From Cyanobacteria bacterium FACHB-63 (GTDB taxonomy: Bacteria > Cyanobacteriota > Cyanobacteriia > Leptolyngbyales > Leptolyngbyaceae): a DNA stretch of 64,000 nucleotides. The DNA is taken from positions 1-64,000 of the forward strand of contig JACJNX010000046.1 of assembly GCA_014695255.1 (NCBI GenBank), written 5' to 3'. Below are positions 7,359 to 22,325 of the stretch, piece after piece. The notes beneath the pieces are model-generated. The model did no database searches. It saw only the letters and a list, made by a program, of their open reading frames with translations, and had not been told where the DNA came from. The position numbers and the translations under genes were made by a program. Each line of letters starts with the position of its first letter. The first letter of the stretch is position 1.

Positions 7359-7469
7359 TTAGTCTGTTTAGTCCGTTTTTTAGTCGCGCCCTTAGTCGCG
7401 GCTTTAGTCCCTTTAATCACGTGGACTAAGCACGTTTTTACCACCTCGGACTAAACGACTAAGGACTAA
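7359..7469. repeat. TTAGTC/GACTAA repeat array, possible replication or partition site
   Basis: Five direct copies of TTAGTC occur at 7359, 7368, 7380, 7392 and 7404. Four copies of the reverse complement GACTAA follow at 7424, 7449, 7457 and 7464. This makes nine hexamers in 111 bp with overall dyad symmetry. The array sits between the last gene of the plasmid-like minus-strand operon and the region's left part. Spacings in the first block are 9, 12, 12 and 12 bp, close to helical pitch. Iterons, a centromere-like site, an operator cluster or a transfer origin would all fit; which one is inference. Confidence 0.65.
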
Positions 7470-7479
7470 AACTGAGAGA

Positions 7480-7845
7480 TTAAGTATTATCTGAAAGCTC
7501 TAACATCCGAGCAAACATTTGCATCTCGCTCGAATAGCTTTCGATGTACTCACAGATAACAAAGGGTGAATCTTTACGCCCTCTGCTCCGGTATCTCGTA
7601 GGAAACTGAATCATTTCTCCTTTAGTCCTCCAGATATGCCCTTCGTAGGGGAAATGTTCACCTTTGACGGGTTTGGTATTAAATCCAATCAGGAATTGTC
7701 CTCGCACTTTAGCAACCTCGATCGCGCTCATTTTCTCAGCTTGGTTATCTGGTAGATAGAACGCGCACAAGATCCATAACCGTGTTTGTTTTATGCAGAT
7801 GTGATTTTCGATTTTCGTTGCCGCGATCGCTTCTGAGAATTCCAT
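7480..7845 (-). CDS. Hypothetical protein, last gene of plasmid-like operon
   Basis: This protein of 121 residues is not recognised. It starts 'MEFSEAIAATK' at ATG 7845 with AAGGA about 9 nt upstream; an in-frame ATG two codons earlier is less well placed. It is soluble, with mixed alpha/beta character and a basic patch 'TRYRSRGRKDS' near the middle. It follows the ATPase gene by 19 bp and ends 11 bp before the TTAGTC array. Being next to both, it may bind that array or assist the translocase, but that is only positional inference. Confidence 0.6.
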   Translation of the reverse strand: MEFSEAIAATKIENHICIKQTRLWILCAFYLPDNQAEKMSAIEVAKVRGQFLIGFNTKPVKGEHFPYEGHIWRTKGEMIQFPTRYRSRGRKDSPFVICEYIESYSSEMQMFARMLELSDNT

Positions 7846-7864
7846 TTGCAAAAGTCCTTAAGGG

Positions 7865-9529
7865 TTAGAAGTCGTAATCGTCCGTGTCGGGTTGTGCGAT
7901 TGCAGCCGAATATTTCCCGGACTCCTCAATCACAAATCCTTTACTCTGGAGAGCCTTTAACAGTCGCTCTATCGTCTCGTTGTCCAGGCTTGCGTCAGTT
8001 CTCAACCGCTTAACGTTTCGGATCTGTGCGGCTGAGTTACCCTCTCCCGGTCGTTTCCGCATCCAGTCCAGCACGAATGATGCAACCTCAAGAGATTTTT
8101 GCTTCCAGTTCGGGAATGCAGCCTTAAGCTCTGCCTGAGATGAGGAAACCTCGATCGCACTCTCGTTCACCTCATGTTGAGCGTTAGGGACGTTATAAAG
8201 TCGCTCCAAATCTTGAGCAGTTGTGATCGTGCTGTGTTCGACAATCTCAAAGGGCGTTACCCCTGACCCTAGAGAAGCCAGTTGAGAGATGTCTGCAACC
8301 TTGCCGTCGATAATGCAGGGGCGATCGTATTTGGAGATATCCAAGCCGCATTTTTTGGCGTGTTCCTCTGCAAAACCTTTCAGATAAACGTAGATCAGGT
8401 TATCTCGTAGACTGCCTTCTCCTTCAATGCCGAGCGTTTTAACTTCCTGACCTTGAGCCAATAGGATCAGCCTAATTTTGCTCGTCCGTCCTGCTCGGAT
8501 GATGAATTTCAAATCTTTGACAACATCCAAATTCATATCCTTGCAACCTGCAACGAAGGTCGGTACTTCATCCAGAATCACGTTGATAGGCTCGAAATTA
8601 TCCTCTCCGGTTTCGTTCATCTGGGCTTCGCGTTGCTTAACAAGTACGCTCAATCCTGCGATGTTTTCCGCGATCGTGGGGAAGTCGTAAGGCAACCCGA
8701 TCACCTGCATTCCCACAAAATCTTTCGGTTTCTTTTTGGGAGTTATGACCAACTTCACACCATTCAAAGCACGTCCTAGCTTTTCGGATAGATAGCTTTT
8801 TCCGCCGCCAGTCTTACCCAAAATGAGCAGATGCGGAAAATCATCGTAATGGCTGTTTAACAAGTTCCAATCGAATAGCTTTGATTCTGCGGTCGCGATC
8901 GGGAGGGTGAAGCTTTGGTTCTCCTGGGGTGCATTCGTCCGACTCTCGACAGGCGAGATCGCTTTATCAGGTTGCTCGATAGGTTGGTTCTGAGTCCGTG
9001 GATCGTTTTCTATGGTGAAGCACAACCCGTCTAGAATCCGCAGGTACTCACGCGCCATCAAATTTGCATCAGCGCTTCCCGCGTCTGCGTAGGAGTCTAG
9101 AAAGATATCCCACGCTGCAATCAAGTTCTTTGCTTCGATGCCCTTGAGATGACATCCAAACATCAGATCGAGCATCGTCGGGCATTGCTTCAGCGCTCGT
9201 AATTCGACCTCTCGACGGGGGATGCACTGATTCGCTTCCCGGTAGGCAAAGAAGGCTAACGCTGCGGCTCCGATCGGCAGCGCTCCCAGAATCCCTATAG
9301 TTCCGCCGCCGATCAATCCAATTACGCCGCCTGCAACCGCTAGCCATTTTGATGAACTGGCGACCCCAACCGTTTGAGAGTAAGTCTGCTTTGCGATCGG
9401 TGCGAGATTTTCTAAAGCTTCTTTGACACTCCATCCTTGCTCAGCAATGAGATGACCAAGCAAAGATTCATCGTGCGCTGCGGTGTTGCGATCGGTTGTG
9501 CTTTGGTTGTACCGGGTTAAGTTAGACAT
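7865..9529 (-). CDS. Membrane-anchored HerA/FtsK-like DNA translocase ATPase
   Basis: This 554-residue protein has an N-terminal membrane hairpin (about 62-97, Gly-rich). A P-loop ATPase domain carries Walker A 'GKTGGGKS' at about 238-245, Walker B 'INVILDE' at 315-321 and a Gln-containing sensor segment 'LILLAQGQ'. A C-terminal region at about 465-535 resembles a winged helix. This layout matches plasmid and conjugation coupling or translocation ATPases of the HerA/FtsK/VirD4 superfamily, which pump DNA through membranes. It sits downstream of ParM-like and membrane-protein genes in one operon. No relaxase is nearby, so transfer of double-stranded DNA or a segregation role is possible. The exact family is uncertain. 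Confidence 0.8.
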   Translation of the reverse strand: MSNLTRYNQSTTDRNTAAHDESLLGHLIAEQGWSVKEALENLAPIAKQTYSQTVGVASSSKWLAVAGGVIGLIGGGTIGILGALPIGAAALAFFAYREANQCIPRREVELRALKQCPTMLDLMFGCHLKGIEAKNLIAAWDIFLDSYADAGSADANLMAREYLRILDGLCFTIENDPRTQNQPIEQPDKAISPVESRTNAPQENQSFTLPIATAESKLFDWNLLNSHYDDFPHLLILGKTGGGKSYLSEKLGRALNGVKLVITPKKKPKDFVGMQVIGLPYDFPTIAENIAGLSVLVKQREAQMNETGEDNFEPINVILDEVPTFVAGCKDMNLDVVKDLKFIIRAGRTSKIRLILLAQGQEVKTLGIEGEGSLRDNLIYVYLKGFAEEHAKKCGLDISKYDRPCIIDGKVADISQLASLGSGVTPFEIVEHSTITTAQDLERLYNVPNAQHEVNESAIEVSSSQAELKAAFPNWKQKSLEVASFVLDWMRKRPGEGNSAAQIRNVKRLRTDASLDNETIERLLKALQSKGFVIEESGKYSAAIAQPDTDDYDF

Positions 9530-9560
9530 AGTTGGAAATCCTCAAGGTTTCAAACGAACT

Positions 9561-9589
9561 ATCCCCCGATGCCACAAACATCGGGGGAT
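9561..9589. other. Perfect intercistronic stem-loop
   Basis: ATCCCCCGATG (9561-9571) and CATCGGGGGAT (9579-9589) form an 11-bp perfect stem with a 7-nt loop. It lies between the membrane-protein gene and the ATPase gene and has no T tract. It may set relative expression or mRNA stability rather than end transcription. Confidence 0.55.
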
Positions 9590-9595
9590 TCTGAT

Positions 9596-10360
9596 TTACT
9601 TCTGCAAGTCTTGAGCGGCTTCTGCTTTTAACCTGCGTTGATGTTCGCGATAATGCCGAGACTGTCGAGCGGTGAGCCTTAATTGCTTCATCCAGGATGA
9701 GAACTTCAGACAAACCTCAAAGCCCACGATCGCGATGATTGCTCCGATGATGCCGGGAACATTCAGAACGCCATTCGTGAAGATTTGGAACGCCCACAAT
9801 GCGCCGATCGTCTCGATGCCGTATGCAATAACGCTTGCTCCTTGCATATCCTTAAAGAGCTTTTCTGCTGAACGTTTCGCCATATCTGTGGCTTCTGGCA
9901 GTAATGACGGACTGTTTCGATCCGCTCTCGGTTGTGCAACCGGGGAGAGTTTCAGCTTTACCGCTAATCGTTCAGCCATACCGGGAAAGTAGGAGTCAAT
10001 TCGCGGGAAGATTTCGAGCAGTTGTAACCCTGTCCCCAAAACGACCGATAACGTTAATCCAGCAAAGTAATCGAGCGGAATCGGCAAGCTTCCCGCTAAT
10101 GCGGGAATCAGCAAACGCCCATAAGCATGAATGCCGATCGCTAAGCAAACACCAGCGCCAACATAACCCGCCGTCATCCATAACGAGGGACTGAGAAAAC
10201 GAGTGAAGATATCCTCGATCGCGTCTCCCAGATGTGCGCCTGCATCGATGCCGACTCCTTTCTCCGGCTTCTGCTTTGTGGTCTTAGGGTTGAATCTGTT
10301 CTTGTCAAAATCAGAATCGCCGCTATGAAATTGAGTTTTAGGAGTGCTTTCTGCTTTCAT
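9596..10360 (-). CDS. Hypothetical multi-span membrane protein
   Basis: This is a protein of 254 residues. A hydrophilic, Lys-rich N terminus (1-45) precedes a membrane segment at about 62-78 and further hydrophobic segments near 80-112. A cytoplasmic stretch then leads to a C-terminal hydrophobic pair around 175-205. The tail is strongly basic and ends in a helical 'HYREHQRRLKAEAAQDLQK'. The family is not recognised. It overlaps the upstream gene by 4 nt, which suggests coupled translation, and precedes the translocase ATPase. It is a good candidate for a membrane partner or channel of that ATPase (inference). Confidence 0.65.
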   Translation of the reverse strand: MKAESTPKTQFHSGDSDFDKNRFNPKTTKQKPEKGVGIDAGAHLGDAIEDIFTRFLSPSLWMTAGYVGAGVCLAIGIHAYGRLLIPALAGSLPIPLDYFAGLTLSVVLGTGLQLLEIFPRIDSYFPGMAERLAVKLKLSPVAQPRADRNSPSLLPEATDMAKRSAEKLFKDMQGASVIAYGIETIGALWAFQIFTNGVLNVPGIIGAIIAIVGFEVCLKFSSWMKQLRLTARQSRHYREHQRRLKAEAAQDLQK

Positions 10361-10770
10361 CGGATTAATCCTCGCTGTTGTAAAACTTGGTTGATTTGCT
10401 CGATCGGTGCTTGCTTGATGTCTCGGACTGCTCCGAAGCGATCGACCTCTCCCGTATAACCACTTCGAGCGCTACACAATGCCGTCCCCATTGGTAACAG
10501 TCGCTTACTAACTCGGTTGGTCGGGTCATAGTAAGCCGCGCCACCTTCCACTAAGGGGTATCGCTCATCAATCAAATGGCAACGTCTAGCGCGATCGAGT
10601 GCTTTTCTAACGTCTTGAGTCTGCTTTGATTCCTCTTGATCTTGGGTGGCTTTCTGCTGCAATTCGGCTTGTGATTGGCGGAACATTGTGATTGCAGAAG
10701 GCGCGATCGTGAGCGCGAGAATCAGACTTAAGCTTGGAATCTGCCAGCTAAGAGGAAGGTTTAGTCTCAT
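10357..10770 (-). CDS. Hypothetical membrane-anchored or secreted protein
   Basis: This protein of 137 residues starts 'MRLNLPLSW' at ATG 10770. The frame is open further upstream, but that part lies within the preceding small gene and is extremely basic. Residues about 9-28 form a signal-anchor helix, followed by a Gln-rich stretch likely to form a coiled coil. A small domain with two Cys then has motifs 'GGAAYYDPTN' and 'CSARSGYTGEVDRFG'. It may be extracytoplasmic. It overlaps the neighbouring genes on both sides, so it is part of one operon. No family is recognised. Confidence 0.6.
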   Translation of the reverse strand: MRLNLPLSWQIPSLSLILALTIAPSAITMFRQSQAELQQKATQDQEESKQTQDVRKALDRARRCHLIDERYPLVEGGAAYYDPTNRVSKRLLPMGTALCSARSGYTGEVDRFGAVRDIKQAPIEQINQVLQQRGLIR

Positions 10771-10894
10771 TTTCTTCGCCCTCGTTCGGTTCTGTTTTTG
10801 GTTTGGTTTGCTGCGCTTTTTCTTTTTCCTGCTGCTTAAGCGCTTCATAACGCTTTAAGCCTTCAATCAATAAATCAATGGTTCGCTGTCTCAT
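10748..10894 (-). CDS. Small charged protein (48 aa)
   Basis: This frame of 48 residues has an N-terminal amphipathic helix ('IDLLIEGLKRYEALKQQ') followed by a Lys/Glu-rich disordered tail. Its ATG overlaps the stop codon of the 50-aa gene (ATGA), and its end overlaps the start of the next gene by 23 nt. Both facts support translation within the operon. Function is unknown; a small adaptor or regulatory subunit of the neighbouring membrane complex is a guess. Confidence 0.55.
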   Translation of the reverse strand: MRQRTIDLLIEGLKRYEALKQQEKEKAQQTKPKTEPNEGEENETKPSS

Positions 10895-11043
10895 TTAGAT
10901 CCCCCTTGTTCAATTTTGGGTATTTGAACATTGATCCTTAATCCGTTGTCTCTTGCCCAATAACCAAGCCCGAAAGCAGTCACGATGCTTGCAATTAGAG
11001 CAACGCCGCCGATTGTGGTGCCATCGTCTTTGTGGTAGCTCAT
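10891..11043 (-). CDS. Small single-span membrane protein (50 aa)
   Basis: This protein of 50 residues has one Gly-rich transmembrane helix at about 12-31 ('GGVALIASIVTAFGLGYWA') and a short hydrophilic tail. Its start overlaps the stop of the upstream 104-aa gene (ATGA) and its stop overlaps the next start in the same way, so it is embedded in a translationally coupled chain. It is not recognised. Coupling with the membrane and ATPase genes downstream suggests a subunit of one assembly. Confidence 0.6.
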   Translation of the reverse strand: MSYHKDDGTTIGGVALIASIVTAFGLGYWARDNGLRINVQIPKIEQGGSK

Positions 11044-11354
11044 GCTGCGAACACTCCCTCGCGCAATTGTTCAAGAAGTGCAGCCATTAACGGCGGTGCA
11101 TCATCTGGATCGATTTCTTCGATGATTGATACCGCTCTGCTGAGGTTTGCAGACTCAGGAAACAGATTCGTATGCGCGATCGCGGGAATTGTCCAGTGAG
11201 CATCACTCGGATCGTCCATCGATAGCCAGAGCGATAATGCTGCAATCAGTCCAAGCTTTTCGTTGCTTGTGAGGCGTTCGAGTAAGTCTCCGAAAGCATG
11301 AATCAGATGATGGGATTCTGTGCATTCGGTATAGTAGCCAATCGCTTTAGGCAT
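11040..11354 (-). CDS. Hypothetical acidic protein (104 aa)
   Basis: This is a soluble, acidic, helix-rich protein of 104 residues, with no signal or membrane segment ('LERLTSNEKLGLIAALSLWLS', 'LMAALLEQLREGV'). It starts at ATG 11354 after a GAGGATTTTTT-type leader, as do several genes of this operon. The family is not recognised. It ends in an ATGA overlap with the small membrane-protein gene. Confidence 0.6.
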   Translation of the reverse strand: MPKAIGYYTECTESHHLIHAFGDLLERLTSNEKLGLIAALSLWLSMDDPSDAHWTIPAIAHTNLFPESANLSRAVSIIEEIDPDDAPPLMAALLEQLREGVFAA

Positions 11355-11442
11355 AATTAAAAAATCCTCAAATGATTTGCGTTGTTTGTGGGGTGAGCCG
11401 ATCGCGTTTCCTTGTCACGGGCTGGCGCGATCGGTTTCGAGT

Positions 11443-11778
11443 TTATAGGTTGCGATCGCTCAGTCGTTTTGGCAGTTCTGATTGAGCGCTCAACTGCTGC
11501 ATTAATTCGAGGTGTTTTTTCTCCTTCTCCGGCATCGTCTCCAGCTTTGTTTGAAGAATTGCGGCAAGTTGTTTGAGGGCGTTTACCGTGTCATCTCGCG
11601 AGATTTGCTGAATCCGCTTATTCCGGTTCATGAAACCATCGAAACTTTTAAGCTCGATCGCGCTGCCATCAACAAGCGATCTCCCGATATTAGAAGCCAG
11701 AAAACAAAGATCGCTGAATGATGCCTTGGCACAGTCTTTGCCGTAAAACTGGCAGATTTGATCAAATAGTTGGGACAT
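11443..11778 (-). CDS. Hypothetical helical protein (111 aa)
   Basis: This is a soluble protein of 111 residues with a predicted C-terminal coiled coil ('LKQLAAILQTKLETMPEKEKKHLELMQQL'-like region, about 67-98). No signal, membrane segment or catalytic motif is visible. A GAGGT sequence precedes the start closely. It belongs to the minus-strand plasmid-like operon, 17 bp after the 79-aa gene. Not recognised. Confidence 0.6.
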   Translation of the reverse strand: MSQLFDQICQFYGKDCAKASFSDLCFLASNIGRSLVDGSAIELKSFDGFMNRNKRIQQISRDDTVNALKQLAAILQTKLETMPEKEKKHLELMQQLSAQSELPKRLSDRNL

Positions 11779-11795
11779 TAGAACCTCACCTCATA

Positions 11796-12035
11796 TCAAC
11801 TTGGGAAGTTTTCAGACAGTCCGCGATCAAGCAGCGGCAGGAAAGCTTCGGTGTACTCCAGCGCTAGATCGGCAATTTTGGCTTCTACCGGAATGAAGTC
11901 TTCATTCGCTTCGATCGCCGCTTGATCTTCCGCATTTAATTTCTCAATCAGCGCGGAATTACAAAGCAGCGCTTTGAAAGCCTCGATCGCAACCTTGGCG
12001 TACATCTCCGGGGTAGCTTGAACGTTGTGATACAT
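11796..12035 (-). CDS. Hypothetical small acidic protein (79 aa)
   Basis: I start this gene at ATG 12035 ('MYHNVQATPEM') because AAGGAA lies about 8 nt upstream. The frame is open 16 codons further but without a better site. The product is acidic and helical ('IEKLNAEDQAAIEANEDF'), soluble and without known motifs. It lies between the ParR-like gene and the 111-aa gene. Function is unknown. Confidence 0.55.
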   Translation of the reverse strand: MYHNVQATPEMYAKVAIEAFKALLCNSALIEKLNAEDQAAIEANEDFIPVEAKIADLALEYTEAFLPLLDRGLSENFPS

Positions 12036-12147
12036 CTCGAAAAATTCCTTTGCGATTAATAATCCTGAGTATCTTGGGGGCAATGAGATCGTGCTTTCTC
12101 AGTAGCGCGGGACTGTACCCGACGCGGATTGTTAGTAGTGCAGAAAA

Positions 12148-12480
12148 CTATTGCTGACTAGGTTTAGAAAGCAGTTTCATCTTGTCTTTTAGTGACAGTC
12201 CATCCTGTGCAGATGGCATGATGTCCGGGGTATGTGGCACATAGTCCGACTTAGACAAGACATCATCCGGGGTCATTGGTACGGGCTGAGTCTGTTTAGG
12301 GTGCACGATGTCTGGGGTATGTGGCACATAGTCCCCTAAGCATCGGGCTAAGTCCCCGCCGTATCGCCTAACAAGCAGTGCGAACAGTGCGCCCGGTCTT
12401 TCATGCCCTGTTATCTCCATAAGCTGCTGGATTGCTGCGTAGGACTCGTTGGGGACGGTAACTTGAAACGTCTTAGACAT
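12148..12480 (-). CDS. ParR-like adaptor with C-terminal peptide repeats
   Basis: This protein of 110 residues overlaps the start of its partner's coding end by 8 nt, directly downstream of the ParM/actin-like gene. That is the usual position of ParR, the DNA-binding adaptor of type II partition. The N-terminal 45 residues ('FQVTVPNESYAAIQQLMEI') fit a ribbon-helix-helix fold. The C-terminal half contains 'DYVPHTPDI' twice, separated by about 29 residues and encoded by 28-bp direct repeats. Such a flexible repeated tail could bind the filament tip (inference). Family assignment rests on position and fold pattern, not on clear similarity. Confidence 0.55.
   Translation of the reverse strand: MSKTFQVTVPNESYAAIQQLMEITGHERPGALFALLVRRYGGDLARCLGDYVPHTPDIVHPKQTQPVPMTPDDVLSKSDYVPHTPDIMPSAQDGLSLKDKMKLLSKPSQQ
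12220..12334 (-). repeat. 28-bp direct repeats inside the ParR-like gene
   Basis: Positions 12220-12247 and 12307-12334 are identical except for one base. They encode the repeated peptide DYVPHTPDI in the adaptor's tail, so the repeat is most likely a protein-level duplication. Confidence 0.7.
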
Positions 12481-13480
12481 GGGTCAAATGGTGGAAGTAC
12501 GAACCACGAACCGAGGCAGTGTGAGCGTTGTCATCAACCCAGAAATCAAGCGCTCTCAGTTGGTCTTTCAGCAACATCGAGCCGCCGCCGCTAAACAAGA
12601 TTTGCTCAACCTGCGAGAGATAGCCCTCACACTGGCTGAAGACTGTTCCGATTACCTTCTCTTGCCATTGGGCAAGGTGCTTAGCCTTAATCTTCTGCCA
12701 CTGATGCGGGTCAATCTTTGCAAGGTGATTATTCTTAAGCGCGATCGCAATCTGCGTGTCAGTCACTTTCTCAGCAGAGTGCAAGTCGAGAATCAAAGCA
12801 TTGCGAACAATTGGATCATTTGCGATCGAGGATGCCAGCTCAAACACTCCCATTTGGATCGGTGTTCCTCGTTCTGGGTTGCCGTATTCATCCACGATCC
12901 AGCTTTCCGTTGTGCGATATCCAATCTCGACTACCAGAGCATCGCCGCGCTTCAGTTGGTTCAACTCAGAAGCAAGCCAGAACGCGCCCAGACCTTCGTG
13001 AACTAGCTGAATGTCTACGACATTGACATCGACTTCCCGATCGTTACGGATGAAGTGATGCCGTCCTAAAAGTTGAGTTTTCAGCCGCGCCTCGATCACC
13101 GGATCGTGGACGCTGTGATGCGAGATTACTAACCGCACATCTCCGTTATCACTGGGAAGTAACAACGGCATGATTAAGTGCCGCGCCTTCTCTGACTTGT
13201 CGCAGGTTGATGTTGCAATTGACTGATGCTTTCCTTTAGCGGGTTTCTCTCCAAACCAAATCAGATCGCCGCTTTCGGTTTTAACTTGTGGGCTCTCTGC
13301 TGTTCCCTTGCCGATCGCTAATGGTTCGATGTCAGTAGTCCAAGCGGCGTGAACGATCAAGGCTTCTCTGTCGCCTTCTCCATATCGTTTCCCTTGAGAG
13401 TTGGAAAGCTCAATCGAGATGAGTTTGGGTTGTGTTCCAATCTGGGAGGTAAGTGATCTTGCTTCAGTTAATGGGGTCAT
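12473..13480 (-). CDS. ParM-like actin-family segregation ATPase
   Basis: This protein of 335 residues has actin-fold signatures. A phosphate-2-like 'ALVVEIGYRTTESWIVD' is at about 181-197 and an adenosine-binding 'ILFSGGGSMLL' at 294-304. The N-terminal phosphate-1 loop is less canonical ('ISIELSNSQGK', about 21-31). ParM proteins polymerise to push plasmid copies apart. A small gene follows with 8 nt overlap, as in parM-parR. ATG 13480 is supported by AAGGAG about 10 nt upstream. It is the first gene of the long operon after a terminator at 13506-13536, so a promoter should lie in 13481-13510. The weak phosphate-1 loop leaves some doubt about activity. Confidence 0.7.
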   Translation of the reverse strand: MTPLTEARSLTSQIGTQPKLISIELSNSQGKRYGEGDREALIVHAAWTTDIEPLAIGKGTAESPQVKTESGDLIWFGEKPAKGKHQSIATSTCDKSEKARHLIMPLLLPSDNGDVRLVISHHSVHDPVIEARLKTQLLGRHHFIRNDREVDVNVVDIQLVHEGLGAFWLASELNQLKRGDALVVEIGYRTTESWIVDEYGNPERGTPIQMGVFELASSIANDPIVRNALILDLHSAEKVTDTQIAIALKNNHLAKIDPHQWQKIKAKHLAQWQEKVIGTVFSQCEGYLSQVEQILFSGGGSMLLKDQLRALDFWVDDNAHTASVRGSYFHHLTHV

Positions 13481-13505
13481 TTGTGATGCTCCTTAAATTG
13501 CAATA

Positions 13506-13536
13506 GAAAAGCCCCTAGGGATGAACTAAGGGCTTG
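13506..13536 (-). terminator. Minus-strand terminator before the partition operon
   Basis: On the minus strand AAGCCC (13535-13530) pairs with GGGCTTTT (13514-13507), with extra CTTAG/CTAGG pairing inside. It ends the 13573-13950 gene and insulates the ParM-like operon. Confidence 0.55.
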
Positions 13537-13572
13537 GGGATGATATTTCAAGGCAGTCTACGATCGCGGGGG

Positions 13573-13950
13573 CTAATCCGCTTCGTCCTCTGCCTCGCTT
13601 GCAAGAAGCAGGGAATGGACTTGATCTAAAGATTCAAATTCGCCTGATGCACGCTCAGACATCGTTACCGCGTCGCTATCTGGTTTGAAGTGCAACACGA
13701 TAAAAGCGCTTCCGTACAGCTCAGGCAAATGAATTGCCGTGATCCATTCGCCTAATGGGGAAACGCTATGATCCACGACGAAACGAGGATCGTTCTGTGC
13801 GGCGATCGCGATTTCGAGAAAGCGCGTAGGAAAAACAAAGGCGTTATATGGTTCAGCAGTCTTGGGGTTAATGAACCAAACATCATAGTCAGTCCCCGTT
13901 CCACAAGAGTGCCGCTTAATTCGCTCTGCAATTTGCGCGGAATCTAACAT
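13573..13950 (-). CDS. Hypothetical protein (125 aa)
   Basis: This is a soluble mixed alpha/beta protein of 125 residues starting 'MLDSAQIAERIKRHS' at ATG 13950, which has GAGG about 10 nt upstream. The middle contains 'TDYDVWFINPKTAEPYNAFVF' and the C terminus is acidic. No known motif is recognised. It is a single-gene unit on the minus strand of the integrated element, followed by a terminator. Confidence 0.6.
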   Translation of the reverse strand: MLDSAQIAERIKRHSCGTGTDYDVWFINPKTAEPYNAFVFPTRFLEIAIAAQNDPRFVVDHSVSPLGEWITAIHLPELYGSAFIVLHFKPDSDAVTMSERASGEFESLDQVHSLLLASEAEDEAD

Positions 13951-14241: not shown

Positions 14242-14269
14242 TTTGTTCATACCTCTTTGTTGGGGTTAG

Positions 14270-14484: not shown

Positions 14485-14509
14485 AGCCGTCCTCAGAGGC
14501 GGCTTTTTG
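14485..14509 (+). terminator. Second plus-strand terminator-like hairpin
   Basis: AGCCG...CGGCTTTTT forms a compact hairpin over 14485-14509. The sequence CGGCTTTTTGATTA is shared with the hairpin at 14270-14309, which suggests the two are copies of one element. Confidence 0.4.
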
Positions 14510-14661
14510 ATTACTGCTAAATTGCAGCGGATCGGCTTCTGTGTCGGAGAAGCGCGATCGCTGAAATCTTTCTGGCTGTTTCTCAGGAGAGCCTTGCTCC
14601 TTCCGCTTGTCTATCGGGCAAGTCCCCCGCGCCGTGTGTGGCGAACGATTCAGTTTGGATT

Positions 14662-14791
14662 TCAAGGTACAGAACTTTGATTAATCTAACTGTACCTCAA
14701 TAATCAGAGTTCAGAACTTTGAAATCATCAGAATAGTTGATTCGCAAAGCGTCTAGTCATTAATTATCAATATCAAAGTTCTGAACCTTGA
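14662..14791. promoter_or_regulatory. Three copies of a 19-bp palindromic operator
   Basis: Sites at 14662-14680, 14704-14722 and 14773-14791 all fit TCAAnGTTCwGAACnTTGA with at most two changes. The first two centres are 42 bp apart, about four helical turns. They lie between the minus-strand small genes and the ribbon-helix-helix gene at 14846. The third overlaps the probable promoter of that gene (a TATGCT -10-like box near 14807). An additional AGGTACA/TGTACCT palindrome surrounds the first site. The element's own repressor is the likely ligand. Confidence 0.7.
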
Positions 14792-14845: not shown

Positions 14846-15142
14846 ATGTACGCGATTGCAGGATTAGACCAAGTGCCCACAAAGCTGAACAGGATTACTG
14901 TTGCGTTAGAGCCAGAGCTTTATGAAGCGCTGCAAGCTTATAGCACTCGAAGTAGACGGTCTATGAGTAACCAAATTTCTGTAATTCTTGAGCAAGCGCT
15001 AATTACTACAGGTGATTTGAAAGCACCGATAGCGAGAGTAGAGAAACGTGGCGGTAAGCGTCCGGGTGCTGGAAAACCAAAGAAATCGGAACGGAAAGAC
15101 GATCGCGCGTCATCCACCGACAGTAAGGAGCCAGAATCGTGA
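14846..15142 (+). CDS. Ribbon-helix-helix regulator
   Basis: This protein of 98 residues has an N-terminal ribbon-helix-helix (CopG/Arc-like) segment at about 13-50: a beta strand 'NRITVALEPELYEALQ' followed by two helices. A basic tail holds 'GGKRPGAGKPKK', which resembles a minor-groove-binding AT-hook-like motif seen in plasmid proteins. A GGGAG box lies 7 nt before ATG. It follows three 19-bp operators directly, so it may bind them and regulate itself. It overlaps the next gene by 4 nt. Confidence 0.7.
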   Translation: MYAIAGLDQVPTKLNRITVALEPELYEALQAYSTRSRRSMSNQISVILEQALITTGDLKAPIARVEKRGGKRPGAGKPKKSERKDDRASSTDSKEPES

Positions 15143-15642: not shown

Positions 15643-15852
15643 ATGCTGCAAGAATCACCCGACACATTCCGGCTAAAAACTGAATTACGCGATCGTCTAA
15701 GACAGACTTCAAGAGAACACAACGTTCCTAAAAACCAAATCGTAAACGCAGCGATCGGAGCTTACTTAGACAAGCTTGAAAGCGATCTCGTTATTTCTCC
15801 CGCATTTCCAGACCTACGACTGACAGCAGAGCAGATTCTAGGAGCAAACTGA
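15643..15852 (+). CDS. Small DNA-binding-like protein, probable ribbon-helix-helix
   Basis: This protein of 69 residues has a short strand 'DTFRLKTEL' followed by two helices ('RDRLRQTSREHN', 'KNQIVNAAIGAYLDKLESD'), the pattern of ribbon-helix-helix proteins such as plasmid copy-control or antitoxin proteins. It ends 4 nt before the next gene, so they probably form one transcript. A second regulator of the replication module is a reasonable guess. Confidence 0.55.
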   Translation: MLQESPDTFRLKTELRDRLRQTSREHNVPKNQIVNAAIGAYLDKLESDLVISPAFPDLRLTAEQILGAN

Positions 15853-15856
15853 GAGC

Positions 15857-16606
15857 ATGGACTCGCAACTTACTCAACGGATTCCGAGAGATTGGCAAGG
15901 TGCAATCGATCGACTTAAAAACCTGCCAGATTTGGTCTGGTTGATGGACTGTCGCACCGACGAGCAGAAAGAGCATTGGAAAGATTGCAGGTTGATGTGT
16001 TTGTTTATCAGGAAGTTGTTAGAGGATTACTTTTCGGGGATGGCTACTGACCTAAGCCCACTCCCGAAAGCTGATCGAACCTATTGGATGCTGCATCGTG
16101 AGCGCTGGACTGCTTTATACAACGTGATTCAACACGCTTGGACTGACATTTTTCAAGCTGCGAAGGAAGACGGATTAGAAGCGGACTTCCCGAGTCAACC
16201 TGGAGAGATGCTAATCCTGATGTTTAGGATGTGGGCAGCGGAAATGTTTGCGCCCTGTGTGATTGGACTCCATCCAGAGCTAGGACGATTTTCACCTCGG
16301 AAAGCATACACGGCTTACAGCAACCGAAATAAACCGATCGCACTGCCGGAAAACTTAACCCTTGAGAATTGGCGAAAAAGGTTTTCTAAGACAGATCGCG
16401 AAATGATGACTTTTTCGGTGCATGAAACGTACTGCCTGCTTATTTGTGGACGAGTTGCCAAACAAGATCGCCTGCTCAAAGACAAATTGAAAACCTTTCG
16501 ACGTATCGAAGCAAACATCGAGCAAAGTAACTACGCCATGATTCACCCACGAAAGAAAGTGCAGGGCTATCAGTGGATCAACGGGTACAAGAATTCCCTT
16601 GTTTAA
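15857..16606 (+). CDS. Hypothetical protein (249 aa)
   Basis: This is a soluble, Trp-rich protein of 249 residues with no signal, membrane segment or known motif. Its second half is basic ('KDKLKTFRRIEANIEQ'), compatible with nucleic-acid binding. It stands between a ribbon-helix-helix gene and the replication module, 140 bp before the leader ORF. I do not recognise it. Confidence 0.6.
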   Translation: MDSQLTQRIPRDWQGAIDRLKNLPDLVWLMDCRTDEQKEHWKDCRLMCLFIRKLLEDYFSGMATDLSPLPKADRTYWMLHRERWTALYNVIQHAWTDIFQAAKEDGLEADFPSQPGEMLILMFRMWAAEMFAPCVIGLHPELGRFSPRKAYTAYSNRNKPIALPENLTLENWRKRFSKTDREMMTFSVHETYCLLICGRVAKQDRLLKDKLKTFRRIEANIEQSNYAMIHPRKKVQGYQWINGYKNSLV

Positions 16607-16699
16607 CTAATCTCTTAACATTGCTTAACATCCTTGTACCACCTAAGTGGAACGTATATCCGGTGGGAGTTTTGCAGGTTATTCTCAGGGAACATCCAA

Positions 16700-16799
16700 A
16701 AAAATACCCCGTTATCACCGGGGCAGAAAATCAAAATAGAAGTCCATGCTATTAAATTTTTATCGATTGCGATACCGCAATCCTCACGATTCCATTGTA
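16700..16799 (-). ncRNA. Candidate antisense RNA over the replication leader
   Basis: On the minus strand a terminator is formed by CCCCG (16723-16719) and CGGGG (16711-16707), followed by seven T. Upstream of it lies a perfect GATTGCG/CGCAATC hairpin (16765-16782) and a -10-like TACAAT (16799-16794). An RNA from about 16787 to 16700 would have two hairpins and overlap the start of the leader ORF at 16746. Plasmid counter-transcribed RNAs that limit Rep synthesis have this form. No -35 box is convincing and expression is unproven. Confidence 0.35.
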
Positions 16800-16979
16800 G
16801 CAGCATTGCTACGATCCAGACAGTCTCAATCCAAACGGTTAAAATCACTCAAGTTAAGTTGTTCCCTGAGTGAAACAACTTCAAAGGCTTGGACTCAGAA
16901 GATATCGCTGCAAGTTGATCTAGAAATTGCTTTGAGCGATCGGATCGCGGAATTGCGGAAGCGGGGGGCAAAGTTATGA
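16746..16979 (+). CDS. Leader ORF coupled to the replication gene
   Basis: This basic protein of 77 residues ends in an ATGA overlap with the start of the replication gene, so translation of the two is probably coupled. The C terminus ('VDLEIALSDRIAELRKRGAKL') is helical. A hairpin GTAGCA/TGCTAC (16797-16812) lies within its early codons, and a predicted antisense RNA overlaps its start. It may be a leader peptide that controls Rep translation, or a small Rep partner. Not recognised by sequence. Confidence 0.5.
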   Translation: MLLNFYRLRYRNPHDSIVAALLRSRQSQSKRLKSLKLSCSLSETTSKAWTQKISLQVDLEIALSDRIAELRKRGAKL

Positions 16980-19900
16980 TTGCCTCCACAGGATTTGGCA
17001 GACTCAATATCGGCGGATCGATCAAGATTGTCTACAGCCCTAATCCCGGCGTTCAATCAACGATCGAGAACCTTCTCGCTCTCGGTTGCCCTCCAATTCC
17101 GGTTGCACCTAAGCAAGACCCAAGAAAAGAAGGTTGCCATCATCAGCATTTCGCAGTCGAGCGATTTAAGGAATTCAATCCAAGTCAACCCGCAATTCAA
17201 GGTGATTACTGCCGAGTTTCCCAAACCAAAGTTGGTGACTCTGTTGCACCTGTAAAGGGCGATTACTGCCGATTAGATGAAAATTTGCAGCCGATCGGAC
17301 GCTTCACCGGAAAAAATCCGAGCTACCTGGATCGCAAGGGTAGAGCGCGGGTGTTAAATCATAGAACCTATCAAACCCGTCTTCCTACCGAGCAGGAATT
17401 AAAAGAATGGTTTGTTCATCCTCAAACGGGTGTTGGAACACTGGGAGGGCATTCTGGTGTAGATTGGCTTGATTTTGACGCAAAGAACTATCCAAGTCAG
17501 GAAGAATGCGATCGTGATGTTCAGCGGCTCATCAGCGCGAACAATCTAGAGAATACTTGGATCGAGCGAACTGGCTCCGGTGGCTGGCGAATTGCAGTAC
17601 GTCCTCAAACTCAACCGAGTTTTACCAACTTTGCAACCACGACCGACGGTAATCATATCGGGGAAGCCCTCTGGCAAGGACGCTTTACTGTTTTGGCTCC
17701 GACTGTTCACCCAAATGGCAACGCTTATCGCCGCGTCGGTTGGGGTTCCCCGGTAAAAGTTGAAAGCTTAGAAGCAATCGGCATCTATCCGACAAAAGAC
17801 GAAATTGCGAATCAATCTCGTAAGAAGCAGCGCAGCGCAGCGGGTGATCATCAATCGGTTCCAACTAATCCAACGAATAATCCTTGGGATATTCGCAACT
17901 TTGCCGAGCATTTAATCGGATTCCGAATCGAAGGGGATTGGATCAAGTGCAAGTGCCCAGCCCATAACGGTGTCTCTGATAACTCGCTGCATATCCGAGT
18001 CGATACAGGTGCTTATAAGTGCTGGAGTGAATGCGATACAAAACGAATTCATCAAGAAGCGTTAGCGATCGCAGTCTCCAGCGGCTACAAACTGCCTGAA
18101 ACTGATTCTCAGGAACAGTCCGAGCAAGCGCAACAATCAAAGCGCGATCGCTTAATCACCAAGCGGCTGTTTCGTTTTCTCCAGTTCTGGAAAGAATTGC
18201 AGCGAGATTTCTTATTGCCGTCGATCGTCAATGGCAACGAAATCCGATGGCAGACATACCAAGGATTCGCGCCAATTATCGATCTGTTCTGGGATACAAC
18301 CTGCGTTCAAGGCTGGCTTGGAGCGGGGAAAACTGAATCGATGCTGCGATCGCTGATTCCGTTCAAAGATAAGCCGATTGTTCTAGTTTCTCCTCGAAAC
18401 GGATTACTCCGCCAAACAGCACAACGTGCTAAAAAACTTGGGTTTGATGTTTATCACTACCAGGATGACCCCGATAAACTTCGATCAATGCTCGAAGCGG
18501 GTGAACCTGGAATCTATTGCATGGCTCCTGACTCATTTAAGCCTTATGCAGTCGGTAAAGTTCAATGGGAAGACGTGATTCTCATCCTTGATGAATTTAG
18601 CGGAATTCGTAAAGAAATTCTTGGAAAAACTGCTGAATTGCCACAGGTTACGGATGCGATCACTCGATGTGCCTCGTTGATTGCGGTAGATGCTTTCTTG
18701 AGCGAAATCGATATTCGTGTGATTCAGAAACATCGATCGGGTTCGATGCAAATTCTCAAACAGGAATTTAAGAAGTCCCCCGTCAAAATCAAGTGGCTGG
18801 AATGCCGCAATAAGGCAGGTGAGATTTCTTTCAGTCATGAGGGAATTTACTATTCCTTACTTGATCGCTGGATTGACGAGAAGTTAGGACGGATTGCGAT
18901 CGCAGTCGATAACTTGAAAATCGCTAAATTGCTCGATCGCTACCTTAAATCGAAGGGTGTGAAGACTTGGATCGTTTGCTCCGAAACGCCACAAGAAAAC
19001 CACAGCTTCATGCCCGAACCGGATAACGTGATCGAACACGGCAAGATTCAGGCTGTGATTTATACGCCGACAGCTCAATCTGGTCTCGATATCCAAGCAA
19101 AGTTCGATCGCGGACTGCTGATTTGTACCGGAACGCTTGCACCGACTCAAATGCTGCAAATGCTCGGTAGATGTCGGCAGTGTCCAGAATGGTACATTTC
19201 AGCCCCCAGACATTCAGGTAATCCCGAATGTGTGACCCCTTCATTAGACGGCAAGAAGATCCGGCAGTGGGTTGAGCAAATTACGCAAACATTCAAGGAT
19301 TTAGGCTTTAACGTGCCCCTGGAAGTGCAAGGATGGGCTGTCTGGGAAGACCTCATCCGCAATATTGAAAAGGCGTTTACGTCTGAATATATGCGGCATC
19401 TGCTCGATTACTTCTTTGAGTCGGTTGACTCTGTTGAACTAGTGAGCGATCGCACTGCTGAATGGCGCAAAGATGCTCAGATCCTCAAGGCTGAGGATAT
19501 CGAAAAAACCTTGGCGGCTAATGTGCAAAACGGGTTTCGCCTAATTGACGAGCAGAAACAGCCGAACCTTAACTCGGAAGTTTGGGACGTTAAGCTGGCT
19601 CAATTCAGTCTGAAGTATCCCAAAGTGGCTGAGAAGTGCGTGAGCGAACTTCATGAGAGTGAGTCGGAGGGGAACCGACTGAACTCACAGATTGAGCAGC
19701 TAGGCGGGAAGGATTTTGTTCAAGAGCGCTTCGAGAAGCAGCTTCAAGAAATTGAACGACTCAAGCTATCGCTTGAGCGACTCGAAGAACAGATCGATGT
19801 ACGGATTCGGATTTTTAACGAAACTCAGCTTCTAGAAGATCGGAGAATGCTGGAGGCAGCCAAAAGACTACGCAGGGGAGTTGCACACGATATTGAAGCG

Positions 19901-20635
19901 CGATCTACCAATGCGTTTAGACAAAACTTGAACTCAGCTTTTTGCGTTCAAACGACGCGCAGAGAAGACGCGATCGTGCTGGCAAAACTTTTTCACGATC
20001 GACGGGTCGAGAAGCTCAAGAACTATGTGATTGCAACTGAACCGAATGAGCAGGACGATTGCGACCTGCTTCAATATTTACGGGAACGTCCAACGCATTA
20101 CAACGCTGGCAACTTTAAGCGGCTGCAAAATATCAAACTGTTCAGGGCACTTGATTTAGGCAAGCTTGCAACTGTCTCTTCGGAGAAAGAAGTAGAGGCG
20201 CACGTCAACGCCTTCGCTGCTGCTTCGGATGCAATATCAGCGCTCTACCGCAAGTTTCTTGCTAACTCTGAATTGACGAAGTTGTTTCCTCTCATCGAGT
20301 CGCAGAAAGATTTCTTCGCTCACATCAAGGCTTGCTTGGCGTATCTGGGCTATCAAAAGGGCGGAAAGTCGATTCGCGTCGGAACGGATGAACTCAACCC
20401 AAATGGCAAAAATCGCCACGGTGAGCAGCGATTTAGCAAGTCTAGGTCAATTTATTTTGTGTTCTGGTTCTTGATGGAGTGTACTGGCTCTGCCTACTTC
20501 CGAGACAATCTAGAACTGATTTTGCAATCGATCCGCGATCGCTTAACAGCAGAACGTGAAGAACGCGCCAAACAACGTGAAAGGAAGGAGCGATACGAAT
20601 CGCCGCCATCGGGATGGGAGGCATACGCCGCATGA
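16976..20635 (+). CDS. Plasmid replication protein: primase-polymerase plus helicase
   Basis: This is a 1219-residue replication protein. The N-terminal part (about 25-270) resembles archaeo-eukaryotic primase-polymerase domains: 'GVDWLDFDAK' with acidic residues near 166-168, 'ERTGSGGWRIAV' and 'APTVHPNGNAYRR'. Cys/His residues at 325, 327, 330, 349 and 353 suggest a zinc finger. A helicase-like part follows with Walker A 'GWLGAGKT' (446-453), Walker B 'VILILDE' (534-540) and motif VI-like 'QMLGRCRQC'. A long coiled coil follows. This resembles cyanobacterial plasmid Rep proteins of the CyRepA1 type (recalled, not checked). It is expected to start and unwind replication of the excised element. 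Coupled to the leader ORF and to the next gene by ATGA overlaps. Confidence 0.8.
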   Translation: MIASTGFGRLNIGGSIKIVYSPNPGVQSTIENLLALGCPPIPVAPKQDPRKEGCHHQHFAVERFKEFNPSQPAIQGDYCRVSQTKVGDSVAPVKGDYCRLDENLQPIGRFTGKNPSYLDRKGRARVLNHRTYQTRLPTEQELKEWFVHPQTGVGTLGGHSGVDWLDFDAKNYPSQEECDRDVQRLISANNLENTWIERTGSGGWRIAVRPQTQPSFTNFATTTDGNHIGEALWQGRFTVLAPTVHPNGNAYRRVGWGSPVKVESLEAIGIYPTKDEIANQSRKKQRSAAGDHQSVPTNPTNNPWDIRNFAEHLIGFRIEGDWIKCKCPAHNGVSDNSLHIRVDTGAYKCWSECDTKRIHQEALAIAVSSGYKLPETDSQEQSEQAQQSKRDRLITKRLFRFLQFWKELQRDFLLPSIVNGNEIRWQTYQGFAPIIDLFWDTTCVQGWLGAGKTESMLRSLIPFKDKPIVLVSPRNGLLRQTAQRAKKLGFDVYHYQDDPDKLRSMLEAGEPGIYCMAPDSFKPYAVGKVQWEDVILILDEFSGIRKEILGKTAELPQVTDAITRCASLIAVDAFLSEIDIRVIQKHRSGSMQILKQEFKKSPVKIKWLECRNKAGEISFSHEGIYYSLLDRWIDEKLGRIAIAVDNLKIAKLLDRYLKSKGVKTWIVCSETPQENHSFMPEPDNVIEHGKIQAVIYTPTAQSGLDIQAKFDRGLLICTGTLAPTQMLQMLGRCRQCPEWYISAPRHSGNPECVTPSLDGKKIRQWVEQITQTFKDLGFNVPLEVQGWAVWEDLIRNIEKAFTSEYMRHLLDYFFESVDSVELVSDRTAEWRKDAQILKAEDIEKTLAANVQNGFRLIDEQKQPNLNSEVWDVKLAQFSLKYPKVAEKCVSELHESESEGNRLNSQIEQLGGKDFVQERFEKQLQEIERLKLSLERLEEQIDVRIRIFNETQLLEDRRMLEAAKRLRRGVAHDIEARSTNAFRQNLNSAFCVQTTRREDAIVLAKLFHDRRVEKLKNYVIATEPNEQDDCDLLQYLRERPTHYNAGNFKRLQNIKLFRALDLGKLATVSSEKEVEAHVNAFAAASDAISALYRKFLANSELTKLFPLIESQKDFFAHIKACLAYLGYQKGGKSIRVGTDELNPNGKNRHGEQRFSKSRSIYFVFWFLMECTGSAYFRDNLELILQSIRDRLTAEREERAKQRERKERYESPPSGWEAYAA

Positions 20636-20814
20636 TCGAAAATCTTAAACCCAATACACAGCAGCCCTCACACACAGATGAGGTGCGCTTGCGATGTCAC
20701 AAATTAATCGATCGCATCGCTCGTAGACCCGGATCAGCAAAATTGCTGCAACTTGCAGAAAAATCATTAACCCTTTACGCAGAATATAAGGCGAATCGCA
20801 AGCATGAGCGATAA
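20632..20814 (+). CDS. Hypothetical 60-aa protein
   Basis: I start at ATG 20632, which overlaps the TGA of the replication gene. The open frame begins earlier, but inside that gene. The product is basic and helical ('CHKLIDRIARRPGSAKLLQLAEKSL'). It overlaps the following excisionase-like gene by 11 nt. Function unknown. The chain rep, this gene, xis and int probably forms one transcript. Confidence 0.55.
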   Translation: MIENLKPNTQQPSHTDEVRLRCHKLIDRIARRPGSAKLLQLAEKSLTLYAEYKANRKHER

Positions 20815-21022
20815 AACTTGGTATTTCACAAACGAGGCAGCGATCTTGCTTGACCTGACTGACAAAAAACTGAGAGAGTTGAATCGATTGGGGACGCTCA
20901 AGATGGGCTACCACGTCCGAGATGTTTCGCCAACCGGATCAAAACGTCCTACGCTGCAATTCCACATAGAACGATGCACAGAGTTGCTTTGCACGCCTCC
21001 TGAGAAGCGCAAAACTTACTAA
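20804..21022 (+). CDS. Probable excisionase (small HTH protein)
   Basis: This protein of 72 residues starts 'MSDKTWYFTNEAAILLDLTDKKLREL', a pattern close to the MerR/Xis-type winged helix in which 'TNEAA' marks the start of the recognition region. It lies 7 bp before the integrase gene, the usual place for a recombination directionality factor. It would bend attachment-site DNA and favour excision. The call rests on fold pattern and position. Confidence 0.6.
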   Translation: MSDKTWYFTNEAAILLDLTDKKLRELNRLGTLKMGYHVRDVSPTGSKRPTLQFHIERCTELLCTPPEKRKTY

Positions 21023-21029
21023 TCGAACT

Positions 21030-22139
21030 ATGACGCTAGAACAAGTAAATGCCCGTCTTAAGGCGGCAAAAGTCGGTGTGTCCGTTGGGCGCAATGGGGA
21101 CTGCTTGCACCTGCGCGGCATATTTCCACCTAAACCAGGTGAAACTAAACGCAAGCAACGGGAAATCACGCTGAATGTCTATGCCAATCCATCAGGATTC
21201 AAACGAGCAGAGGCAGAGGCAAGGAAGATTCGATCGCAAATTGACTTAAATCAATTTAACTGGCTCGATTGGGATGAAAAGCTGCGACTTGCAGCAGAAA
21301 TAAAGACTACACGCCCTATAGAGCAATGGATCGAGCTATTCGAGGATGATTACTTTAACCGTCGATCGCGCACTCCAAAATCTGAAACCACCTGGCGAAC
21401 TGACTACAAACAACCGTTTGGGCAACTGCCGCAAAAAGAACTGCTAACGCCTGAAATCTTACGTCAGTCGATTCTTGAAACTGAACCAGACACCCGAAAT
21501 CGTCAACGTCGCTGCATGGCTCTGGGGCAGTTGGCAAAGTTTGCAGGCTACGAGTTCGATGCGACTGCATTAAGAGGGGATTATTCACCGAAACGCCTGA
21601 ATCCGCGTGATTTGCCAACTGATAAAGACATCAGCGAATGGCGCGATCGCATTCCTAACGAGCAGTGGCAGTACGCATTTGGCTTAATGGCTGCCTATGG
21701 ATTGAGGAATCATGAGCTATTTCATATCGACTTAGAAAAGCTACGAGAAAGCCCAGTTCTCAGCCTAACCGATGACCTTAACGGAGGGGGGAAGACAGGC
21801 GCTAGGCGGATTTGGGCTTGCTACCCGGAATGGTGGGAAATGTGGCGATTATGGGATGTGAAGCTGATTCCCAAAGTCACAGGCAAATCAAATTCTGATT
21901 TAGGCAATCGAGTGACTCAGGCTTTCAAGCGTTACGGAATCTCGAAACCATACAATCTTCGTCATGCTTGGGCGGTTCGGACGATCGAGTTTGATATTCC
22001 CGTCGAATTAGCAGCCCAACAGATGGGACACAGTTTGAAGGTGCATTCTGAGATTTATCACCATTGGATTTCAGATGATGTGCATCAACGGGCATTCGAT
22101 CGCGCAATGCAGCGTCCAGACCGTCCTTTACCGCCGTGA
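21030..22139 (+). CDS. Tyrosine recombinase (integrase)
   Basis: This is a 369-residue integrase. The N-terminal part (1-60) has the arm-binding pattern common in cyanobacterial integrases ('LRGIFPPKPGE', then 'NPSGFKRAEAEARK'). Catalytic candidates are R226 ('AYGLRNHEL'), R311 ('YNLRHAW'), H334 ('QMGHS') and the nucleophile Y343 ('IYHHW'). The His that usually precedes 'xLRH' is replaced by Tyr. Length is normal. A tRNA-Phe 3' half lies 145 bp downstream, which identifies the integration site. It should insert and, with the excisionase, release the element. Confidence 0.9.
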   Translation: MTLEQVNARLKAAKVGVSVGRNGDCLHLRGIFPPKPGETKRKQREITLNVYANPSGFKRAEAEARKIRSQIDLNQFNWLDWDEKLRLAAEIKTTRPIEQWIELFEDDYFNRRSRTPKSETTWRTDYKQPFGQLPQKELLTPEILRQSILETEPDTRNRQRRCMALGQLAKFAGYEFDATALRGDYSPKRLNPRDLPTDKDISEWRDRIPNEQWQYAFGLMAAYGLRNHELFHIDLEKLRESPVLSLTDDLNGGGKTGARRIWACYPEWWEMWRLWDVKLIPKVTGKSNSDLGNRVTQAFKRYGISKPYNLRHAWAVRTIEFDIPVELAAQQMGHSLKVHSEIYHHWISDDVHQRAFDRAMQRPDRPLPP

Positions 22140-22244
22140 AAAATCCCCCTAAATTCCCCCTAGATTTTGCCGATCTTTCAGAACAATTCAGGATAATTTA
22201 GTACATTTGCTCAACTGAAAAACCTTGATTTTATAAGGATTTTA

Positions 22245-22267
22245 GCCTGTATCTCAGTGGTACAGGC
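22245..22267 (+). other. D-arm-like hairpin beside the tRNA fragment
   Basis: GCCTGTA (22245-22251) pairs perfectly with TACAGGC (22261-22267) around TCTCAGTGG. The loop looks like a tRNA D loop. It is either element DNA of the attachment site or a decayed tRNA 5' half. Confidence 0.5.
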
Positions 22268-22283
22268 GTTTTTACTGTGTGGT

Positions 22284-22325
22284 CTGAAAATCCTCGTGTC
22301 ACGAGTTCAAGTCTCGTTCCTGGCA
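22284..22325 (+). pseudogene. 3' half of tRNA-Phe (GAA), probable attR core
   Basis: From CTGAAAATCC to TCCTGGCA the sequence matches, as I recall it, the 3' half of cyanobacterial tRNA-Phe. It holds an anticodon loop with GAA (22286-22288), a variable loop GTGTC, a T arm ACGAG-TTCAAGT-CTCGT and an acceptor strand TCCTGGC plus A. The matching 5' half (acceptor GCCAGGA, normal D arm, GAGGA) is missing. The anticodon stem has two T-T mismatches on its 5' side. This is the expected result of integration into tRNA-Phe from the anticodon loop onward. The reconstituted full tRNA should lie at the other end, and it is not in this window. Confidence 0.75.

Follow-up and report, generated by a model that had tools for sequence, protein, structure and literature searches.

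How do small relaxase-free plasmids of filamentous cyanobacteria spread from cell to cell? The question is raised by a plasmid-like, mobile type of element in Cyanobacteria bacterium FACHB-63, a filamentous cyanobacterium. The stretch analysed, here called the window, consists of bases 1-64000 of contig C121 (JACJNX010000046.1) of a 7.2-Mb draft genome (G000), base 1 being the contig edge. The element is almost certainly integrated in the transfer RNA (tRNA) gene for tRNA-Phe. As the initial annotation of this DNA had noted, it carries in order a ParM-like/ParR-like pair, a HerA/FtsK-like ATPase with membrane partners, a replication protein (Rep), an excisionase-like (Xis-like) gene, a tyrosine integrase (Int) and a tRNA-Phe 3' half. 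All named backbone genes are intact open reading frames in that order, and family searches agree with the Int, Rep and ParM assignments and, weakly, with that of HerA. The new observation is a repeat array beside the HerA-like gene that appears to track the predicted winged helix of the ATPase. This hints at a simple form of DNA passage between cells, undescribed in cyanobacteria within the literature searched. The family gives a specific candidate answer to the question of spread, and the ATPase, winged helix and matching array can be deleted or swapped, which makes the answer testable.

The HerA-like ATPase and its repeat array

The ATPase and its neighbours occupy the following positions (aa, amino acids; TM, transmembrane).

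7355-7470, no strand: bipolar array of nine GACTAA-core repeats (GGACTAAA / TTTAGTCC), clt-like, with four cores facing one way followed by five facing the other
7480-7851, minus strand: 123-aa small gene that separates HerA from the array, kept beside HerA in several elements
7865-9529, minus strand: HerA/FtsK-like ATPase with N-terminal TM pair (TM at 63-95), motor with conserved Walker motifs, and C-terminal winged helix
9596-10360, minus strand: membrane protein, 254 aa, two predicted TM helices (TM prediction, element comparison)
10357-10848, minus strand: membrane protein, 163 aa, one TM helix (TM prediction, element comparison)

The array was evaluated at 23 loci of the clade that include the HerA 3' end, with copies counted per 160 base pairs (bp) and compared with shuffled sequences. 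At all 23 it lies beside HerA, either directly after the gene or after the gene of about 120 aa that follows. There are 5-12 copies per 160 bp versus shuffle means of 2.6-2.9 and maxima of 3-5. Every locus is above the shuffle mean and all but marginal cases are above the maximum, the weakest being G052 (5 copies versus a maximum of 4). When whole loci were scanned blind, the array was the strongest repeat cluster in 21 of the 23, with one tie and one second place. Orientation is mostly bipolar, with 20 switches observed versus 66 expected.

Motifs differ between elements (GGACTAAA, TCAGGAT in C32, TCATGA, ACCGGAT in C27, GATACAG, GGACACTT and others), but arrays with unrelated motifs often agree nearly base for base in spacing and polarity. 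The copies are placed at 0, 7, 15, 40 / 60, 72, 84, 96, 105 in the window and at 0, 7, 16, 43 / 60, 71, 84, 97, 106 in G001_C43. Motif similarity tracks the C-terminal 95 residues of HerA (r 0.53, Mantel p 5e-5; partial 0.55 given the motor), whereas it does not track the motor (partial -0.10 given the C-terminus). In a non-redundant set of loci the relation between motif and C-terminus is retained (r 0.46, p 1e-4). The loci share ancestry, so the Mantel p-values are approximate, and more weight attaches to the C-terminus behaving differently from the motor. A homologue on contig C23, alignable to the window ATPase over the C-terminal 120 residues only, is accompanied by a similar repeat (GACTAC), a hint that domain and array travel as a unit.

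HerA residues 465-545 form a winged helix in the AlphaFold model (predicted local distance difference test, pLDDT, 80-90), with a Z of about 10 to winged helices. This domain probably reads the array. In Streptomyces, the C-terminus of the FtsK-family pump TraB reads 8-bp repeats at clt, and TraB moves double-stranded DNA together with Spd membrane proteins (PMC4170104; PMC5365140). That the array tracks the winged helix and resembles the TraB/clt arrangement suggests relaxase-free translocation of double-stranded DNA. The membrane-anchored ATPase would load via its C-terminal winged helix on the element's own array and, together with its two membrane partners, would drive double-stranded DNA across the envelope or in its direction. 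The most likely purpose would be transfer from cell to cell that needs neither a relaxase nor a type IV secretion system (T4SS). No relaxase or T4SS genes were found among the main window proteins scanned, with the cargo on contig C101 (the left end of the element) and the intervening gap not fully scanned; nor was there a match to NurA among the scanned window proteins, which do not include every small open reading frame.

A role of the pump in intercellular transfer is a tentative proposal, its chances somewhat short of even. The wider proposal is made with similar reserve: cyanobacterial integrative plasmids of this type, as an entire family, perhaps pass from cell to cell or along filaments in double-stranded form by means of a HerA-type membrane pump acting on an element-specific bipolar array. 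This would be a TraB/clt-like conjugation that has arisen outside the actinobacteria, its DNA-reading domain and array having been exchanged together.

Integration at tRNA-Phe

Sites and genes that bear on integration and on the extent of the element are listed here.

1-7352, no strand: element interior and cargo, including a PAS-domain histidine kinase (3529-6501); 1-2838 matches an element in the congener G006, and the remainder lies between this block and the backbone
20804-21022, plus strand: Xis-like small protein, 72 aa, conserved 5' of int across the family; no Pfam match
21030-22139, plus strand: tyrosine integrase, 369 aa (Phage_integrase E 4e-5; PHROG integrase E 2.5e-14)
22140-22166, plus strand: putative right-arm integrase sites, 11-bp tandem repeats AAATTCCCCCT (Tandem Repeats Finder period 11), which match left-arm repeats after the C101 tRNA-Phe
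22245-22267, plus strand: hairpin followed by a T-run (z -3.65), kept 3' of int whether the site is Phe, Met, Lys or His
22281-22326, plus strand: attR, a tRNA-Phe 3' half with a 46-bp core duplication, 98% identical over 46 bp to the intact C101 tRNA-Phe; a like arrangement is present in congeners G004, G006 and G007

The initial annotation placed the left limit at 7359, which proved too far to the right. The element runs past window base 1, and window 1-2838 matches, at 95% identity, interior sequence of the tRNA-Phe element of G006. An intact tRNA-Phe followed by element DNA, which the initial annotation suggested seeking upstream of base 1, is present at G000:C101:192635-192707. Contig C101 stops 4952 bp beyond it, and the DNA 3' of this tRNA aligns to the left part of the G006 element; the order C101 then window is kept. 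As C101 and window 1-2838 are collinear with a single G006 element, about 3 kb is missing here between the contigs, and the contig break falls within a sequence repeated elsewhere in the genome. The element is at least 27.3 kb in size plus the gap of about 3 kb. The possibility had been raised that the DNA on the left would be syntenic core chromosome, or that relatives would have the same gene order without a tRNA duplication. The left DNA is instead element interior in G006, and relatives with the same backbone have Phe, His, Met and Lys duplications.

In G006, one contig holds an intact tRNA-Phe and a 3'-half copy 20 kb apart, and a 95% identical integrase lies beside the half copy. Further tRNA-Phe elements are found in G004 (15 kb) and in G007 (24.6 kb, with a second unit in tandem). 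The direct repeat of the tRNA 3' end at both ends is on single contigs in these three genomes and on two contigs here, where the two tRNA-Phe copies are linked by synteny and by matching arm repeats. The second unit of G007, 10 kb in length, lies between two tRNA-Phe half copies (G007:C1:2590303-2600556, L063-L064), and no Int, Rep or HerA homologues were detected in it.

Tandem repeats with a period of 11 bp are found just inside both ends of each element. The sequence is not constant across elements, yet the left and right copies of any one element correspond: CCCCCTAAATT in the window element, GTGAGCAAGAT in G004 and G007, GGACTAAATT in the tRNA-His element of G006 and CGTTCCAAGAT in a plasmid of Picosynechococcus PCC 8807. 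With seven elements compared, correct pairing of the ends scores 121 versus a mean of 95.9, a value reached by 1 of 5040 permutations. The repeats are best read, from their sequence and position, as putative integrase arm sites. Because arm repeats agree between ends, the C101 left end and the window right end fit each other. The tyrosine integrase would recombine the tRNA-Phe 3' half with the use of the arm repeats at both ends, and the 72-aa protein may, to judge from its position, function as the excisionase. The catalytic R, R, H and Y positions of the integrase are kept in 15 relatives, with the HxxR position being YxxR family-wide. Closely related integrases occupy tRNA-Phe, -Met, -Lys and -His genes in the genus, and this set of tRNA-specific integrases and arm sites is usable as integration tools.

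The hairpin at 22245-22267 is probably the int terminator. A tRNA 5' half at about this position, before attR, was considered and ruled out, since the hairpin is conserved 3' of int whatever the target tRNA.

To the right of the element lies psb27, a gene that in relatives is unlinked to tRNA-Phe. The junction at 22327-22741 contains fragments of a second integrase; at 22329-22574, outside attR, these are diverged pieces with 90% identity over 49 aa and 41% over 34 aa to an integrase of contig C24, and they are the relic of another element at the same tRNA. The block at window 22741 and the block at C121:83971-86863 are neighbours in G006 (C11). Here they are 61 kb apart and in opposite orientation, which suggests an inversion with one end beside the element. 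The second-integrase fragments, tandem units and non-syntenic right flanks point to tRNA-Phe as an integration hot spot. An empty-site test with the joined flanks of the G006 tRNA-Met element gave a contiguous match in no genome, because the DNA 3' of these tRNAs is non-syntenic even within the genus. At another target, a tRNA-Lys element of the present genome (end of L012, G000:C32:32759-32998) is directly adjoined by the left end of another element, forming a tandem array.

Free relatives, known systems and alternative explanations

Relatives of the element occur as free plasmids. Plasmid unnamed2 of Picosynechococcus PCC 8807 is circular and 13 kb in length; its Int is 41% identical, and it has a tRNA-Met 3' half between matching arm repeats. 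By its sequence, this half with its arms is what an excised attP should look like. The plasmid differs from the window element in the absence of HerA and in a different Rep. It also has a TAGACA repeat cluster of its own (L087, about 5681), though no HerA homologue was detected. Plasmids pMIC7113.05 and pMIC7113.06 of Allocoleopsis carry an annotated ParM/StbA, a small gene, a member of the family of 104-aa proteins, two further small proteins and a relative of HerA. The succession is that of the window (ParM, ParR, small genes, two membrane proteins, HerA), but both this Int family and the array are lacking. A tblastn search with ParM against plasmids gave no match, though homologues exist at the profile level.

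Among described systems, the actinomycete integrative and conjugative elements (AICEs) pSAM2 and SLP1 integrate by tyrosine recombination at tRNA 3' ends, have a Rep that can be Prim-Pol and one FtsK-family translocase, lack a T4SS and show the order tra-rep-int (PMC3218068). The window element shares the tRNA 3' integration, the Prim-Pol Rep, the single translocase and the gene order. Its clt-like repeats differ in forming a compact bipolar array, whose sequence statistically tracks what is a predicted winged helix. It also differs from AICEs in having ParM/ParR in the backbone, a host that is cyanobacterial and not actinobacterial (psb27 flank; congener Phormidium tanganyikae), and a HerA-like ATPase that falls short of the PF01580 cut-off. 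No PF01580 (FtsK/SpoIIIE) match was present among the matches of the window HerA up to E 0.1, and the HerA relatives of free plasmids reach E 0.0017-0.0018, below the cut-off. ICETh1 of Thermus thermophilus, 14.9 kb in length, lies between 47-bp direct repeats of the 3' end of tRNA-Ile, encodes the HerA-like TdtA, excises and promotes DNA donation (PMC5365140). It is similar in having a HerA-like ATPase in a tRNA-flanked element, but no DNA-binding domain has been detected in TdtA, whose partner is NurA, whereas the present element has a winged helix and an array. TraB and TdtA are the closest working models; the element would work like AICEs and ICETh1 and belongs to neither. Prochlorococcus tycheposons, as described in two reports, are also cyanobacterial tRNA-anchored islands with tyrosine recombinases and cargo, and no report of HerA with an array or of ParMR was found in those texts (PMC10872708, PMC11389934). 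In the open-access literature, to which the search was confined, no description of ParMR/HerA tRNA-integrated elements in cyanobacteria was found.

The proposed transfer function is the most speculative step, and the data do not separate it from segregation. The ATPase and array might act in segregating the free plasmid or in resolving its dimers, with positioning at the septum as in FtsK and its orienting polar sequences (KOPS). FtsK-type winged helices do read short oriented motifs, and HerA is in one module with ParM/ParR on both integrated elements and free plasmids. Such a role nevertheless seems less likely than not: motifs of the KOPS type are scattered across a replicon and polar, in contrast to the one compact bipolar array found beside a gene here, and ParM/ParR already provides segregation. 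Iteron-like direct repeats are typical of origins and of parC, and the array copies could also pair as hairpins, which raises the question of whether the array is an origin or centromere (Rep iterons or the parC of ParR), its adjacency to HerA being incidental. This is distinctly improbable, as the motif tracks the HerA C-terminus and not the motor, the two parts of HerA that were compared, and as the array lies beside HerA at every locus and not beside parM or rep.

Other observations weigh against an element that excises and transfers itself. The joined attP was searched for in this and 19 other genomes, and the ends of the window element occur only apart. The link between C101 and C121 spans the gap of about 3 kb, which is derived from G006. 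Outside residues 465-545 the full AlphaFold model of HerA is unusable (mean pLDDT 40). Family matches of the motor are weak (DUF87 E 0.01; FtsK/SpoIIIE phrog E 0.001), and a PDB profile search gave mostly P-loop noise, FtsK included at E 0.01. The HerA homologues of free plasmids that were examined have no array, and PLSDB types the free plasmids as non-mobilizable, a typing that rests on relaxases. Perhaps the element is an immobile chromosomal relic that no longer excises. G006 holds a decayed copy without Rep and ParM, there is no circle in this assembly and the right flank is rearranged. With Int, Xis, Rep, ParM, ParR and HerA all intact, a relic is quite unlikely. Integration in tRNA genes and a primase-helicase occur also in phage satellites and tycheposons, and there is a weak terminase-like hidden Markov model match (E 0.003); yet a satellite or decayed prophage in which packaging falls to the ATPase has very little to recommend it. 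No structural or capsid genes occur among the window proteins scanned, no HerA relative occurs in the IMG/VR viral contigs searched, Rep has just five weak matches to phage records, and the backbone is common to free plasmids. The best explanation of the whole, membrane pump and array included, is fairly probably an integrative plasmid whose relatives occupy many tRNA genes or exist as free plasmids. Of the excisable plasmid proposed in the initial annotation, the plasmid-type element integrated in tRNA-Phe, with Rep, ParM/ParR and Int/Xis, is borne out. Its excision is presumed: this assembly has no joined ends, and an attP is carried by a free circular relative.

Replication, partition and other genes

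The remaining features of the backbone are as follows.

11040-11354, minus strand: small gene, 104 aa, of a family found in five elements and in free plasmids pMIC7113.05/.06 (hmmsearch E 4e-14, 5e-17)
11443-11778, minus strand: small gene, 111 aa, with homologues in G004_His and G006_C41
11796-12083, minus strand: small gene, 95 aa, with a homologue in the equivalent place in G006_C41
12148-12480, minus strand: ParR-like protein, 110 aa, overlapping parM and placed 3' of it as a ParR would be; predicted beta-alpha-alpha N-terminus (pLDDT about 75), weak ribbon-helix-helix matches (Z 3.1-3.4)
12473-13480, minus strand: ParM-like actin ATPase, 335 aa (MreB-like_C E 4e-7; PF21522 above cut-off; phrog_691 partition E 1.4e-13; PDB ParM/StbA E 0.0015)
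14662-14791, no strand: likely operators, three 19-mers close to palindromic (TCAAAGTTCTGAACCTTGA) in the space between divergent genes (repeat inspection)
14846-15142, plus strand: ribbon-helix-helix protein, likely a regulator (RHH_5 E 3e-6)
15857-16606, plus strand: 249-aa protein, conserved before Rep, with a homologue at the equivalent place in the G004 tRNA-His element
16976-20635, plus strand: Rep, Prim-Pol and CyRepA1-like helicase, 1219 aa (Prim-Pol E 6e-8; CyRepA1 domain E 2e-30); homologues adjoin int in C27, G004, G007 and G006_C41

Once excised, the element would replicate by its Prim-Pol/CyRepA1-type Rep and be segregated by ParM/ParR, as homology and the free relatives suggest. 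With NF042913 (CyRepA1), Rep scores 106 bits, below the curated cut-off of 200, so that only a common domain is indicated. No clear parC iterons are present directly 5' of parM.

A combination of partition genes with chromosomal integration had been considered unusual in cyanobacteria, but it recurs. The same partition family was matched in five integrated elements, some just 21-26% identical, and further ParM homologues are present in tRNA-Lys elements of G002 and G001. In all, homologous ParM-type genes occur in six or more related integrated elements and on two free plasmids. This recurrence indicates that partition is a core function and not accidental.

FcmB and FcmC of filamentous cyanobacteria are a chromosomal ParM-derived actin and its ParR-like partner (PMC12645912), and in this they resemble the element pair. 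FcmB-like genes occur singly on chromosomes, have 24-31% identity to the ParM of the element, and stand apart from it in a tree with weak support. The tree was tried as a guide to origin and has long branches that allow no conclusion. Elements of this type are a possible route for plasmid actin genes, for example an FcmB ancestor, into cyanobacterial chromosomes. A chromosomal ParM-like gene of this genome, probably FcmB, is found at G000:C130:438-1238; similar genes are present in most genomes searched and could confuse annotation of the element ParM. At window 14500-14571, a stretch of 50-70 bp is 85% conserved in the G004 and G007 elements and is a possible regulatory or cis site.

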